The position numbers were made by a program, and so were the translations under genes. The notes beneath the pieces are model-generated. The model worked only from the letters and a program-made list of their open reading frames with translations, had not been told where the DNA came from and searched no databases. Positions 52,267 to 57,011 of a DNA stretch of 64,000 bases are shown here, piece after piece. Positions within the stretch are counted from its first letter, which is position 1. Every line of letters begins with the position of its first letter. Location: NCBI GenBank assembly GCA_018821925.1, contig JAHJLF010000075.1, positions 1 through 64,000 on the forward strand. The letters run 5' to 3'. The DNA comes from Candidatus Edwardsbacteria bacterium (lineage in GTDB: Bacteria; Edwardsbacteria; AC1; EtOH8).

Positions 52267-53772
52267 ATGAACAAAATAATCGTCTCCCACAAAGATAATA
52301 TTGCCCCTGCCATAATGCCTCCGGCGGTACAGGCAAAACGCATCGGTCCGGTGATCTCACCGGACCGTTCCCGGGTGTTATTGCGGCCCTTCTATCCCGC
52401 CCGGAAAAGCATTGCCCGGAGGATCGTGGCCCGGGTGATGGCCCTTACCGCTGAAGCGGCAGCCCAATTGCTGGCATCGGTGCTTAGCGAGTTCAAAGAC
52501 CGGCATGAAAACGTCGAGCAGACCTTCCTCAACCGCTTCAAGCAGGTGCAGGCGTATCTTAAGGACCGGCAGGAAACCCCGCCGGAGAAACAGTTATTGA
52601 TCGGATCCTATTTTTCGCACGAATATTCGCCGGAGTCGGCGGCCCTGTTCAATCCGTCCATTGTGCCGCACCCCAACCAGGCCGGGCTTCCCGATGGCTC
52701 GCTCCGTTTTGTCTTAAGTCTGCGGGCCACCGGGGAGGGGCACATCTCCTCCATCACCTTCCGCACCGGCACCGTCAGCGCCCAGCACCGCATCAAACTG
52801 ACGCCGCTGGTACCCTTTGTTACCGAGCCGGAGCCCCTGTCCAACGCCACCTATCAGAAAGAGCTCTTCGCCCGCAAACTTCAGGAGGCGGGCCTGCACA
52901 GTAACTTCTGCCGGCGGGTGGTGGCTCAGCTTCCCGGGGAATTCGTTTTGGACGACCTGCGCCGGATGCTGAAAGCCGAGCGCCGGAAAATGACCCCGGT
53001 CGACGCCCTGGCCGACCGGGCCGCCCAAGGCGTCCTGCTGCTGGCCGAATCCAACTACCAGGTGCGGTTCGATCCCGCCAGCCACCTGGCCCAGCGGATC
53101 CTCTTTCCCTCGGTGCCCAGCCAGAGCAACGGCATCGAGGACGCCCGGTTTGTCATGTTCCGGGACGAGGACGGCAGCATCACCTACTACGCCACCTACA
53201 CCGCCTACGACGGCAGGATCACCCTGCCCCAGCTGTTGGAGACCAAAGATTTTATCCAATTCAAGTTCCTGACCCTCAACGGCCCGGCCGTCCAGAACAA
53301 GGGCATGGCCCTGTTCCCCCGCAAGATCGACGGGCGTTACGCCATGCTGTCGCGCCAGGACGACCAGAATATTTTATTGATGTACTCCGACAATATCCAC
53401 TTCTGGCAGACGCCCAAAATGCTGCTGCAGCCGGCCCAGCCCTGGGAGATGGTCAAGATCGGCACCTGCGGCTCACCCATAGAGACCGAGGCCGGCTGGT
53501 TAGTGCTGAGCCACGGGGTCGGCCCCATGCGGAAGTACTGCCTGGGCGCCTTTTTGCTGGACCTTAAAGACCCCTCGCGGGTGATCGGCCGCCTGCGCCA
53601 GCCGCTGTTGTCGCCAAATGAGGACGAGCGCGAAGGCTACGTGCCCAATGTGGTTTACACCTGCGGCGCTCTGCTGCACGGCCGGGAGCTGGTGATTCCT
53701 TACGCCATGAGCGACTATGCCAGCAACTTTGCCACCGTGCCGCTGGACGCCCTGCTGGCGGCGATGGAATGA
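52267..53772 (+). CDS. GH130 family glycoside phosphorylase-like protein
   Basis: A 501-aa protein of GH130, the family of beta-mannoside phosphorylases and hydrolases. The five-bladed propeller motifs are NPSIVPHPN (near 131), SNGIEDARFVMFRDEDG with the family's Glu-Asp-Ala-Arg segment, GRYAMLSRQDDQNILLMYS, KIGTCGSPIETEAGWLVLSHGVG and YVPNVVYTCGALLHGRELVIPYAMSD. The longest frame opens upstream at 51757, but the N-terminus MNKIIVSHKD at 52267 directly follows the GT4 stop and is more plausible. Phosphorolysis versus hydrolysis cannot be decided here. Confidence 0.85.
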   Translation: MNKIIVSHKDNIAPAIMPPAVQAKRIGPVISPDRSRVLLRPFYPARKSIARRIVARVMALTAEAAAQLLASVLSEFKDRHENVEQTFLNRFKQVQAYLKDRQETPPEKQLLIGSYFSHEYSPESAALFNPSIVPHPNQAGLPDGSLRFVLSLRATGEGHISSITFRTGTVSAQHRIKLTPLVPFVTEPEPLSNATYQKELFARKLQEAGLHSNFCRRVVAQLPGEFVLDDLRRMLKAERRKMTPVDALADRAAQGVLLLAESNYQVRFDPASHLAQRILFPSVPSQSNGIEDARFVMFRDEDGSITYYATYTAYDGRITLPQLLETKDFIQFKFLTLNGPAVQNKGMALFPRKIDGRYAMLSRQDDQNILLMYSDNIHFWQTPKMLLQPAQPWEMVKIGTCGSPIETEAGWLVLSHGVGPMRKYCLGAFLLDLKDPSRVIGRLRQPLLSPNEDEREGYVPNVVYTCGALLHGRELVIPYAMSDYASNFATVPLDALLAAME

Positions 53773-53817
53773 ACGATAGATAAGAGTGTTTAGATTATAG
53801 ATTTTAGGGATTATCCT

Positions 53818-53864
53818 TGTCACACTGAGAGGCCTTGATTGCCCGGCAAGCTGAATGTGTGACA
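53818..53864. repeat. Dispersed TGTCAC...GTGACA element
   Basis: TGTCACACTGAGAGG to GTGTGACA, with core TGCCCGGCAAGCTGAA closely similar to 49730-49748. Confidence 0.6.
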
Positions 53865-53940
53865 ACATACAAGGTGCGTAATTCTATCCCCGGGTTGTGG
53901 ATATATACACCTTTACCTGACGATTAAAATAAAATATACA

Positions 53941-53967
53941 CGCGCTTCGCCGATCCAGTAGTTAGCC
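53941..53967 (+). other. Integration site at the left edge of the cassette cluster
   Basis: CGCGCTTCGCCGATCCAGTA is followed by GTTAGCC at 53961-53967, the R' core of an attI or attC site (cut between G and TT). The matching left half of an attC is not visible upstream, so this is an attI-like site or the right half of a worn attC. Confidence 0.5.
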
Positions 53968-54688
53968 GCCACCCACCAATAGGAGATTGACAATGGAAGG
54001 AATATTTGCTCTACCCTACTCGGAGTATGAAGCAATCTTGCAGACCCAGAAATTCTTCAAAAAGAACGATGGATTTGCTGTTCTCGTACCTACAAGTCGG
54101 CAACAAAAAGGAATTGACTTCATTATTCTTAACACTCTCAACTCAAAGGTGCTACGGGTCCAAGTCAAGAGTTCACGTTCATATGTTCATCCAAGCCCAC
54201 CGAATAAGTCGAAAGACGAGCACCATATTTACAATTTTTGGTTCAACAATTTTCTCAACAGGTACGAACCGAATACCGCCGATGTATACTTGCTATTCGG
54301 CTTATACCCCATCTACAACAACAAAAGCAACATCAAGTCAAAGAAAAAGTTCTGGAAGAGTATTATCCTTGCGCTCACTGACTCTGAGATGAAGAAGTTG
54401 CTGGATCAAGTAAAGACAAAGAAGGAAAACAAGCCGGATCGGTTCTTCGGCATCAGTTTTAACGATCCCAATAAAATTATCGGCAAACGCGGCTTCCCCG
54501 ATAGACCTGATTTGACTGCCCATATTCTCGATACTAAGATCGGTGAATTACTCAACAAGCTGAAGTAGCAAATTCACGTGGTGGGCGGCAGCTAACAAAC
54601 GGGTTTTGCAGCTCGTAAGAATAGCACGCGCAATGCCGTTTCACGGCCACGTTCTCGCCAGAAGCAGACAGGCGCAAACCCGCAAATG
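53962..54688 (+). mobile_element. Integron gene cassette 1
   Basis: Begins after the G of GTTAGCC and ends at the G of GTTATAT in attC-2. Its first bases GTTAGCCGCCACCCACC (counting that G) match the reverse complement of the stem before its attC, GTTAGCTGCCGCCCACC, at 15 of 17 positions. This is the sign of a cassette that had circularised. It carries one gene, 31 bases from its start. Confidence 0.75.
53993..54568 (+). CDS. PD-(D/E)XK-like nuclease-fold protein (cassette 1)
   Basis: A 191-aa hydrophilic protein, AT-rich against its neighbours. Start ATG 53993 has AGGAG seven bases before it. Residues ~35-60 read RQQKGIDFIILNTLNSKVLRVQVKSS: an Asp followed by a Q-V-K strand, the arrangement of the PD-(D/E)XK nuclease core, with candidate Glu in the first helix (EYEAILQTQKFF). 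The DUF4365-type resemblance is by eye. The Glu/Gln change at the E-x-K position is seen in some active nucleases of the superfamily. A defence or DNA-processing role is inferred; the target is unknown. Confidence 0.65.
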   Translation: MEGIFALPYSEYEAILQTQKFFKKNDGFAVLVPTSRQQKGIDFIILNTLNSKVLRVQVKSSRSYVHPSPPNKSKDEHHIYNFWFNNFLNRYEPNTADVYLLFGLYPIYNNKSNIKSKKKFWKSIILALTDSEMKKLLDQVKTKKENKPDRFFGISFNDPNKIIGKRGFPDRPDLTAHILDTKIGELLNKLK

Positions 54689-54694
54689 TTATAT
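54580..54694 (+). other. attC-2, recombination site of cassette 1
   Basis: GGTGGGCGGCAGCTAAC (54580-54596) begins it, R'' being GCTAAC (54591-54596). L'' CGGGTTTTGC (54600-54609) pairs with L' GCAAACCCG (54674-54682), leaving one base bulged. R' is GTTATAT (54688-54694). About 104 bases from R'' to R'. The middle holds further short palindromes. Confidence 0.75.
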
Positions 54695-54770
54695 GACATA
54701 ACCAGCCCAACTTAACAGGGTGCCCGCCGTCCATGGTGGGCAAGGAATTATTTTTTGTATCAGGTAAACA

Positions 54771-55391
54771 ATGAAAGAAACACGATTATTCTCTTATAAA
54801 ATGACACACGATACTGGATTTGCTCCAAATCCTTTCGGTGGATTTCTAACCTTAGCAACATGCAAGCCTAAAATACGGGAATGTAAAAAAGTGGGTGACT
54901 GGATTGCCGGTTTTACATCAGGCCAATTAAATGGTGAAAAAGTTGGAGATGAAAAGTTAATATATCTGATGAAAGTTACCGACAAGATATCATTCAAAGA
55001 CTATTGGAACGATCCAAAACATGAAAAGAGAAAGCCAAATATAGATTCTCAGGTAGTTATTGAAAAGAGAGGGGATAATATATATATGCCCCTTGTTGAA
55101 ACACCAAGAACTTTTTCGGATTTTAGGCAGATTCCTAACCATAATCATACTGAAAAAAACAAAGGAAAAGATTTAAGTGGAAAATATGTTTTAGTTTCAA
55201 ATGTTTTTTATTACTTTGGCTCAAAACCTATAATTATACCAAATGATATCAGACCCAAAGTCCCGAAAGGTCAGTCAAGTCATGGTTCGAGAACTTACGA
55301 CACGAAAGTAATTAATGATTTTTTATCATACATGGGGTCAAAATATCAAAAAGGAAGGCAGGGTCAACCTCATTCATGGTTTAATAAATAA
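54771..55391 (+). CDS. Nmad2-like protein (nucleotide modification associated domain 2)
   Basis: A 206-aa protein that I recognise as Nmad2, a family described by Iyer, Aravind and co-workers from gene neighbourhoods of DNA base modification. The start RLFSYKMTHDTGFAPNPF is followed by GGFLTLATCKPKIRECKKVGDWIAGF, YLMKVTDKISFKDYWNDP and DNIYMPL, all in the usual order. Biochemical role is unknown; binding or editing modified nucleotides has been suggested. AGGT is the only ribosome site. Its stop overlaps the next start (TAATG). The gene is strongly AT-rich and lies alone with its partner inside cassette 2. Confidence 0.8.
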   Translation: MKETRLFSYKMTHDTGFAPNPFGGFLTLATCKPKIRECKKVGDWIAGFTSGQLNGEKVGDEKLIYLMKVTDKISFKDYWNDPKHEKRKPNIDSQVVIEKRGDNIYMPLVETPRTFSDFRQIPNHNHTEKNKGKDLSGKYVLVSNVFYYFGSKPIIIPNDIRPKVPKGQSSHGSRTYDTKVINDFLSYMGSKYQKGRQGQPHSWFNK

Positions 55392-56206
55392 TGAAAGTTA
55401 TATTAAGTCGTAAAGGGTTTGATTCAAGTTATGGGGGTCAGCCAAGTCCAATTTTACCGGATGGAACCTTACTGTCTCTTCCAATACCAGCGAGAAATGA
55501 TGTTTTTAAGTTTTCTGATTTACGTTATCAAGATAAATCATATTATGAAATTATAAAGAAGCTTAAACCGAACAGTAAAATAAAAAAAGATTATACATGC
55601 CATCTTGATCCAGATATAAGAAGGGATGTGGTAAAAAGAGGCCCTTCATGGAAAGGGTTGTTTGGACAAATGGGCAGTGCTCAAGGGCATTTAAACAATG
55701 AAAATGTTGGACTTGATGATATATTTATATTCTTTGGATGGTTTAAAGAAACAGAATATACACACGCTGGGATCCAATACATAAAAAATGCTCCTGATTT
55801 ACATGTAATTTTTGGCTATTTCCAAATCGGTCAAATTTATAAATCATATGATGATTTACCCAATTTGGCAAAATATCATTCTCATGCTAATAAATTTTCA
55901 ATTGATAAAAACAATTGTATATATGAAGCTAAAGAATCTTTGAGCTTTAACAACAGAATTTCAGGTTGTGGTTGTCTGAAATATAACAAGACATTAGTAT
56001 TAACAAAAGAAGGTGAGAATAAAAGCCACTGGGATTTGCCGGATTATTTTAAAGGCGTAAAGATATCATATCATTCAATAAATTCTTTTAAACAAGATTA
56101 TTTTGATTCTGCCAAGAAAGGACAAGAATTTGTTATTGAAAATAATGAGAGTATAGTTGAATGGACAAAGAATGTTATTAAGAATTATGATAGTTCTTTA
56201 TTGTAA
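55391..56206 (+). CDS. Nmad3-like protein (nucleotide modification associated domain 3)
   Basis: A 271-aa protein with the Nmad3 start KVILSRKGFDSSYGGQPSPI, LPDGTLLSLPIP, then TCHLDPDIRR, FGQMGSAQGHL and FIFFGWFKETEY in the middle. It begins on the last base of the Nmad2 stop codon, so the two proteins are made together and may form a complex. The Cys-Gly-Cys site SGCGCLKY lies near residue 200. No methyltransferase, glycosyltransferase or TET/JBP gene is in the cassette, so any modification would have to come from elsewhere or be the target. Role is inference. Confidence 0.8.
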   Translation: MKVILSRKGFDSSYGGQPSPILPDGTLLSLPIPARNDVFKFSDLRYQDKSYYEIIKKLKPNSKIKKDYTCHLDPDIRRDVVKRGPSWKGLFGQMGSAQGHLNNENVGLDDIFIFFGWFKETEYTHAGIQYIKNAPDLHVIFGYFQIGQIYKSYDDLPNLAKYHSHANKFSIDKNNCIYEAKESLSFNNRISGCGCLKYNKTLVLTKEGENKSHWDLPDYFKGVKISYHSINSFKQDYFDSAKKGQEFVIENNESIVEWTKNVIKNYDSSLL

Positions 56207-56249
56207 AAACGCCTACGCTGCCCTGGCTTCGGCTAATTTATACGGGGAT

Positions 56250-56355
56250 GGGCTGGTTATGCCATATAACAGCGGTTACCCGGCTACGGCCATTCGGCCT
56301 TCGCCCAAATTGGCTCCCGTTGGTTGCCAACTTCGCAAAGCCGCAAACGTTAGCA
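56250..56355 (+). other. attC-3, recombination site of cassette 2
   Basis: GGGCTGGTTATGCCATATAA (56250-56269) opens it, R'' being ATATAAC (56264-56270). R' is GTTAGCA (56349-56355). GCGG (56272-56275) pairs with CCGC (56341-56344). About 92 bases from R'' to R'. Confidence 0.7.
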
Positions 56356-56375
56356 CTACTATTTAAGGTGGTAGA

Positions 56376-56741
56376 ATGAAATTCTGCTGGGTGACCATAA
56401 ACGTAAAGGACATGGAACGGTCCCTGTCATTTTACCGGGACCTTCTGGGCCTGGAGATAAAACGCAAAATGAACCCCAACCCCGACATGGAGATCATCTT
56501 TCTAGGCTCCGGGGAAACGCAGGTGGAGCTTATCTGCAATAAAAAGGCCGGCGATATTGTCGCCGGCAAAGACATCTCCCTGGGCTTCGAGGTGGATTCC
56601 TTGGACAAATTCAGCGAGGTGTTAAAGGCCAAGAACATTCCCATCCATTCCGGGCCCTTCCAGCCCAACCCCCACATCAAATTCCTGTACATCCTCGACC
56701 CGGATGGAGTAAAGATCCAGTTGGTGGAAAACATAAAATAA
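56376..56741 (+). CDS. VOC superfamily (glyoxalase-like) protein
   Basis: A 121-aa single-domain protein of the vicinal oxygen chelate fold (two beta-alpha-beta-beta-beta repeats: VTINVKDMERSLSFYRDLLGLEI, then DISLGFEVDSLDKFSEVLKAKNI). It ends with LYILDPDGVKIQLVENI. The usual metal ligands are incomplete: the first His is Trp or Cys, and the last Glu is Gln in KIQLVEN. It may therefore not be a metal-dependent lyase. AAGGTGG precedes the ATG. It lies right after attC-3, but composition is like the chromosome and no attC follows, so whether it is a third cassette gene is open. Confidence 0.82.
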   Translation: MKFCWVTINVKDMERSLSFYRDLLGLEIKRKMNPNPDMEIIFLGSGETQVELICNKKAGDIVAGKDISLGFEVDSLDKFSEVLKAKNIPIHSGPFQPNPHIKFLYILDPDGVKIQLVENIK

Positions 56742-56837
56742 GAACCGGGCGGAGACCAGCCACAGCGTCAGTATATTTTACCAAATCTATAATTAGCATC
56801 CATTTATAAAAAACAACAACAACGAAACGATGATTAT

Positions 56838-56960
56838 AATTAGCCCAGTCGTTTACGGCTGGGAAAGCGGATAAAGCAAAATGTAAAAGGCCATTAACGG
56901 CCTTACGAGGGGACTATTTTCGTTTATTATCAATCCCAGGCCTGAAGGCCTGGGCTAATT
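56838..56960. repeat. Paired REP-like inverted repeats (BIME)
   Basis: AATTAGCCCAG (56838) and CTGGGCTAATT (ending 56960) face each other. Each has an inner hairpin: CCCAGTCG/CGGCTGGG (56844-56863, one wobble) and CCCAGGCCT/AGGCCTGGG (56935-56954). Between them is AAGGCC/GGCCTT. Confidence 0.65.
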
Positions 56961-57011
56961 AAATATACGCATTGCGATTTTAAAATAATTCTTTAGGTAT
57001 ATATTGTGAAT

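Follow-up and report, generated by a model that had tools for sequence, protein, structure and literature searches.

An Nmad2–Nmad3 gene pair, recurrent across bacterial phyla and carried here in an integron cassette, with a possible role in modified-base sensing

The names of the Nmad families stem from work on base modification. In Pfam, Nmad2 (PF18753) and Nmad3 (PF18754) are families defined by sequence only, and the two proteins described here are full-length members of them. DefensePredictor (PMC13092281) lists an NMAD domain among its predicted, not yet validated defence domains (Fig. 6F of that paper) and explains the NMAD abbreviation in the legend of its validated systems (Fig. 3C); its text names neither the NMAD family that is meant nor a test of an Nmad2–Nmad3 pair. 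Two PUA-type proteins, EVE and ASCH, occur together in common operons (PMC7641849), and integron cassettes with phage-defence functions are the subject of two studies that PMC13092281 cites, by Kieffer et al. and by Darracq et al. The literature searched contains no description of an Nmad2–Nmad3 pair, and the names Nmad2 and Nmad3 yield no relevant paper in it; the domain name written out in full occurs in four papers, one of them DefensePredictor. An earlier reading of the same DNA, here called the original prediction, had known of no described system with this exact make-up, and within that literature this is borne out.

The pair lies in a window of 64 kb, by which we mean the whole stretch of DNA that was analysed, and occupies the second of two integron cassettes. 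The features of the locus, in window coordinates, are as follows.

53962–54688, forward strand: cassette 1, 727 bp, one gene plus attC 1, with R' GTT at 53961 and 54688
53987–54568, forward strand: gene of cassette 1, 193 aa; Pfam DUF4365 at E 0.0043 and 17.6 bits, under the cut-off of 24.3
54590–54694, forward strand: attC 1 (of cassette 1), with RYYYAAC/GTTRRRY-like boxes and complementary L boxes; score 7.2
54687–54709, forward strand: left arm of the terminal inverted repeat of cassette 2, 22/23 complementary to 56249–56271
54689–56349, forward strand: cassette 2 with nmad2–nmad3, 1,661 bp, attC at both ends, 23-nt terminal inverted repeat
54771–55391, forward strand: nmad2, 206 aa; PF18753 at E 3.1e-56; AlphaFold pLDDT 94.4
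55391–56206, forward strand: nmad3, 271 aa, overlapping nmad2 by one base; PF18754 at E 7.7e-69; AlphaFold pLDDT 96.4
56249–56271, forward strand: right arm of the terminal inverted repeat of cassette 2, pairing with 54687–54709
56264–56355, forward strand: attC 2 (of the Nmad cassette), L boxes degraded, identified by homology to loci L147 and L146

The reading frame at 54771–55391 matches the Pfam profile of Nmad2 with 190.5 bits against a cut-off of 26.1 (profile positions 3–197 of 200), and that at 55391–56206 matches Nmad3 with 232.5 bits against a cut-off of 27 (positions 1–246 of 247). Both open reading frames are present where the original prediction had placed them, and its assignment to Nmad2 and Nmad3 is confirmed by this profile search, in which both proteins are full-length and far above the cut-offs. 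The frames are intact and their lengths are typical of the families. The nmad2 stop and the nmad3 start have one base in common (TAATG at 55389–55393), so the genes overlap and are probably translationally coupled. The original prediction had called the pair both coupled and fused; the one-base overlap makes the coupling probable, but the word fused was wrong, since nmad2 and nmad3 are two separate genes encoding 206 and 271 residues. The invariant or nearly invariant polar residues of Nmad3 are R7, K8, D11, H71, D73, D75, Q93, H138, H163, H165, Q245 and E246, and those of Nmad2 are C31, K32, D102, Y105 and D134. No nuclease or other effector domain is recognisable in either protein. PADLOC 2.0.0 (2023) gave no family up to an E value of 1 for any of four proteins, Nmad2 and Nmad3 among them, and the Rfam search of the window gave one tRNA, far from the locus, and nothing at either cassette.

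Packaging of the pair in a cassette, which had also been predicted, is supported by the R' sites, by terminal inverted repeats and by homologous attC sites in sister genomes. Cassette 2 starts at the R' cut point of attC 1, with R' GTT at 54688 and 56349. In cassette 1 the terminal inverted repeat (GTTAGCCGCCACCCACCA / TGGTGGGCGGCAGCTAAC; 53961–53978 versus 54581–54596) is complementary at 16/18 positions. The first ~20 bases of each cassette are complementary to the bases 5' of its own attC, to a degree that beats all 2,000 shuffles, as expected if each cassette was once a circle with its own attC. The terminal inverted repeats of both cassettes (~18–23 bases) reach well past the 7-base R boxes of attC. 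On a scale combining boxes and complementarity, attC 1 scores 7.2 against 6.6 for the 99th percentile of shuffled flanks, and attC 2 scores just 2.0 because its inner boxes have drifted. Thermodynamic folding did not set the two attC regions apart from shuffles on either strand, and folding energy was therefore left out of the cassette evidence.

The assignment of attC 2 comes from sequence homology and not from its own pairing. Over 93 bp it shares 81% identity with positions 1835–1922 of L147, a locus in the same-family genome G005, and it has an exact 24-nt match in L146 (genome G009) and a 23/25 match in G003; relatives of the cassette's attC sites are found in three same-family genomes. 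The L147 site adjoins a methyltransferase-like gene, which is probably another cassette. Near the attC relative in L146 (G009, contig C45) lie genes resembling those of an HNH-type nuclease and a restriction-like protein, possibly a further defence cassette array in the phylum.

Cassette arrays without an integrase are a known state, the integrase being what defines a complete integron. In the window's genome, which is 99.4% complete, no integron integrase matches above the cut-off, and the weak matches look like XerC/XerD-type proteins, with a gap at the integron-specific insertion. With two cassettes here and no integrase in the same genome, the locus is a two-cassette array without an integrase; the sister species G003 has a complete integron, with an integrase and two attC sites. 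Neither cassette holds a modification enzyme, and the next gene, at 56376, is a chromosomal VOC/glyoxalase gene, in agreement with the original prediction that no such enzyme stands beside the pair. In the product of the cassette 1 gene a GIDFIIL...VQVKSS stretch resembles, by eye and not as a database match, the PD-(D/E)XK nuclease motif. This weakly DUF4365-like gene (53987–54568) is perhaps a second candidate defence gene, of PD-(D/E)XK type.

The array is flanked by two chromosomal genes, a glycosidase-type gene ending at 53772 and the VOC/glyoxalase gene at 56376; the VOC gene also occurs in each of the three sister genomes. Three further species of the genus have these two genes around a different, unrelated insert. 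The interval 53773–56375 and its counterparts in L029, L030 and L031 form a small insertion hot spot with a different insert in each of the four species, and the insert at this hot spot in genome G001 ends in an attC-like remnant (CCTAACAAACGGGTTTGCG...GTTAATC). The G+C content of the nmad2–nmad3 stretch is 31.8%, compared with a window median of 54%, and is the lowest of all stretches of the same length in the 64 kb. Nmad3 is absent from all other genomes of the window's phylum that were examined. From the differing inserts in the sisters, the absence of Nmad3 from the phylum relatives examined and the lowest G+C content, we conclude that the pair came from outside the window's lineage. Beyond the array, 56837–56961 contains an imperfect inverted repeat of 46 nt that has GCCCAGGCCT/AGGCCTGGGC-type palindromes and is perhaps transposase-associated; similar stretches are present in sister genomes.

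The original prediction had suggested a survey of how often the two families occur as neighbours. An Nmad3 profile scan of 84,980 species genomes gave 144 relatives; the best 80, ranked by similarity to the window Nmad3, together with 6 viral contigs and 2 plasmids, make up 88 other Nmad3 loci. Nmad2 adjoins Nmad3 in 32 of these 88 (30 upstream, 2 downstream), a rate that is biased because the loci were ranked by similarity to the window Nmad3, and the next commonest family does so in 3 of the 88. An upstream Nmad2 mostly overlaps Nmad3 by 1–4 bases, and the spacing of the window pair is as in distant relatives. Of 386 diverse genomes, 12 have Nmad3 above its cut-off, 5 have Nmad2 and 3 have both, against 0.16 expected by chance (P = 2e-4); with the window's genome removed, the counts are 11, 4 and 2 (P = 0.004). 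The genes are adjacent in 3/3 of the genomes that have both, in the order Nmad3–Nmad2 in the two other than the window's. The neighbourhood is a recurrent one in both samples. Nmad3 often occurs without Nmad2, and Nmad2 is also found without Nmad3.

Protein distances within Nmad2 and Nmad3 correlate (r = 0.82 for 32 pairs; 0/5000 permutations), a correlation that includes shared host descent. On the Nmad3 tree the paired state requires 11 changes, compared with 26 for shuffled labels, and is clustered in more than one clade. The nearest relative of both window proteins comes from another phylum, the Campylobacterota, so the pair has moved together at least once. Its hosts include Bacteroidota, Bacillota, Actinomycetota, Spirochaetota, Campylobacterota, Pseudomonadota and the window's candidate phylum. 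Searches of phage records with tblastn and single-protein scans of viral contigs found no relative of Nmad2 or Nmad3, and profile scans of viral contigs found few. The two plasmid Nmad3 records are very large replicons, in one of which (L042) an Nmad2 remnant follows Nmad3; neither is among the plasmid Nmad2 records.

Convincing attC sites on the flanks were found in 0 of the 31 other pair loci tested, and the cassette is therefore a property of the window copy and not of the Nmad2–Nmad3 module. The predicted mobile cassette accordingly stands for the window copy and not for the 31 other pairs. For the Polaromonas pair (L125), an upstream attC candidate that scored 7.8 was set aside, as about one such score is expected in >60 flanks and no downstream partner was found. 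The pair predates the cassette and is more widespread. Nmad2–Nmad3 is a real, conserved and horizontally spread two-gene module, carried here in an integron cassette.

AlphaFold models of the two proteins, computed from alignments of 41 (Nmad2) and 83 (Nmad3) relatives, are confident, with mean pLDDT values of 94.4 and 96.4, respectively. A Foldseek search of the PDB with Nmad2 returned mostly ASCH, EVE or YTH domains, VcaM4I (EVE–HNH) and the N-terminal EVE domain of McrB among its top 50 matches. Nmad3 gave only four matches under an E value of 1, all of them EVE proteins, two being human THYN1 and one of these in complex with 5-methylcytosine DNA; its weaker matches comprise further ASCH-type, YTH and Lon N-terminal domains and, among viral models, DUF3850, EVE and ASCH. 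The best structural matches of both, to the EVE/YTH/ASCH class, lie at E values of 0.2–1 with TM-scores of ~0.2–0.5, and no Foldseek match of either protein reaches 0.001. Sequence profiles compared with the PDB gave chance matches only and no solved relative of either protein, and profile–profile comparison detected no kinship between Nmad2 and Nmad3. Judged by these weak structural matches, both proteins would most likely adopt a PUA-type fold and be kin of the EVE/YTH/ASCH readers of modified bases. The main ground for a sensing role is that two sequence families with no relation to each other both lead to one superfamily of modified-base readers, a convergence that is suggestive of sensing. 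With a size well beyond that of a bare PUA domain and many near-invariant charged or polar residues, Nmad3 would leave room for catalysis.

Relatives of the two genes are found in several other contexts. Nmad2 lies directly 3' of a TIR gene in 6/6 annotated plasmid loci examined, most of which have uracil-DNA glycosylase, NTP pyrophosphohydrolase, CBASS phospholipase or SIR2 close by; nucleotide kinase-like genes or further TIR genes also occur in these clusters. These TIR–Nmad2 loci (L044–L049), on plasmids of several phyla and often with NTP pyrophosphohydrolase and uracil-DNA glycosylase, are a separate candidate immune arrangement. Where Nmad3 occurs without Nmad2, its neighbour in phage-like loci is an N6/N4 DNA methylase that has a ParB domain; in other loci a 2OG-Fe(II) oxygenase or an overlapping HNH gene adjoins it. 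In an Isosphaeraceae genome (L103, 6039–7004) an HNH_2 gene overlaps Nmad3 by four bases, and in an Oscillospiraceae genome (L119, 5252–6703) a DUF1016 N-terminal domain and Nmad3 lie within one open frame. The latter link was dropped as an argument, the long open reading frame next to Nmad3 in L120 being without DUF1016_N. WYL regulators account for 6 of 138 neighbouring proteins of the pairs, a count with no matched control rate; Wadjet JetA, GmrSD_N and QatD-type proteins also occur, so that the neighbours are a mixture of some defence-like families, WYL included, and many housekeeping proteins. In Bacteroidales a WYL gene and an uncharacterised gene are often found 5' of the pair; in L061, L066 and L068 the genes in a row are a WYL-type gene, a gene of 350–400 aa without a known family, Nmad2 and Nmad3.

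We infer a chemistry and a function, tentatively and with a rough probability of 0.42, in which Nmad2–Nmad3 senses modified bases in invading nucleic acid and brings about an anti-invader outcome. The two genes, which have spread horizontally and lie here in an integron cassette, would constitute a self-sufficient two-protein module. Nmad2 would be the partner that recognises an abnormal or modified base of the invading nucleic acid; Nmad3, presumably of PUA type with many extra invariant polar residues, may be a second reader or an effector acting on that nucleic acid, and the two would act together. The module would protect its host from phages or other invaders, with a logic comparable to that of modification-dependent (type IV) restriction. 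A base-sensing or anti-phage role fits the predicted fold neighbours and the gene contexts of the relatives. Counting against it are the low significance of the structural matches, the mixed neighbours of the pairs, the lack of a recognisable effector domain and the negative PADLOC result. The bolder proposal makes the pair an undescribed immune system of about seven bacterial phyla: modified nucleic acid would be detected by two PUA-type proteins that have no known effector domain, and Nmad3 would contribute new effector chemistry; this is doubtful.

Several other explanations can be weighed against this one. The pair might itself be an enzyme system and not a sensor, changing bases or nucleotides of host DNA, tRNA or the nucleotide pool; 'modification associated' would then mean a direct part in the chemistry. 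Nmad3 and Nmad2 have many invariant polar residues, more than a pure binding domain usually needs, and nucleotide-metabolism genes adjoin relatives of Nmad2. We nevertheless regard such an activity as unlikely: the best structural neighbours are readers and not enzymes, no modification enzyme or cofactor motif was recognised, and the pair recurs without a fixed third gene. It is more improbable that the pair, although defensive, is the sensor half of a larger system completed by the cassette 1 gene or by host factors, because cassettes 1 and 2 are separate recombination units and no DUF4365-like gene is among the recurrent neighbours of other pairs, even if the cassette 1 product is possibly PD-(D/E)XK-like, the WYL and uncharacterised genes precede the pair in Bacteroidales and Nmad2 teams with TIR proteins elsewhere.

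An addiction module that stabilises the cassette array is another candidate: the two genes are small and coupled and lie in a cassette, where toxin–antitoxin modules are common, and the horizontal spread of the pair would agree with this. The occurrence of each gene without the other means that neither looks like an obligatory antidote, and neither Nmad2 nor Nmad3 matches a known toxin or antitoxin family, which places addiction lower again in our estimate. Least probable of all is a passenger cassette with no present function in its host; the genome without an integrase and the degraded L boxes of attC 2 would suit a passenger, but not the intact frames of family-typical length, the strong Pfam scores, or the spacing and overlap preserved as in distant relatives. 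If the module is defensive, as the base-sensing reading proposes, two families known by association only would acquire a function, and the systems of modified-base-directed immunity would come to include a very small one (<1.5 kb). The cassette copy also shows that integrons of a poorly known candidate phylum can carry such modules, beyond the well-studied ones of Vibrio and clinical isolates.

Among described systems, the families, the carriage of defence genes in cassettes and modified-base immunity are known already; the combination is undescribed in the literature searched, which covers the cassettes of Kieffer et al. and Darracq et al. as far as PMC13092281 cites them. The EVE/YTH/ASCH readers and type IV enzymes such as VcaM4I are the best structural neighbours of both models, with no match individually significant, and in contrast to VcaM4I-type enzymes Nmad2 and Nmad3 have no fused nuclease. 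The pair would resemble the EVE/ASCH operons (PMC7641849) in combining two PUA-type proteins in one operon. With the phage-defence cassettes of Kieffer et al. and Darracq et al., as far as these are represented in PMC13092281, it shares the cassette packaging of small candidate defence modules; it differs from them in a genome without an integrase and in a defence role that is predicted. The TIR–Nmad2 loci, which lie in plasmid immune islands, have the same Nmad2 family (~29–36% identical) and the same tight two-gene layout, but the partner there is TIR, upstream, whereas here it is Nmad3, downstream, and uracil-DNA glycosylase and NTP pyrophosphohydrolase often accompany the two genes. Since one presumed sensor is joined to two different partners, the recurrence of the pair across phyla and the TIR–Nmad2 alternative offer a direct test of what Nmad2 senses.
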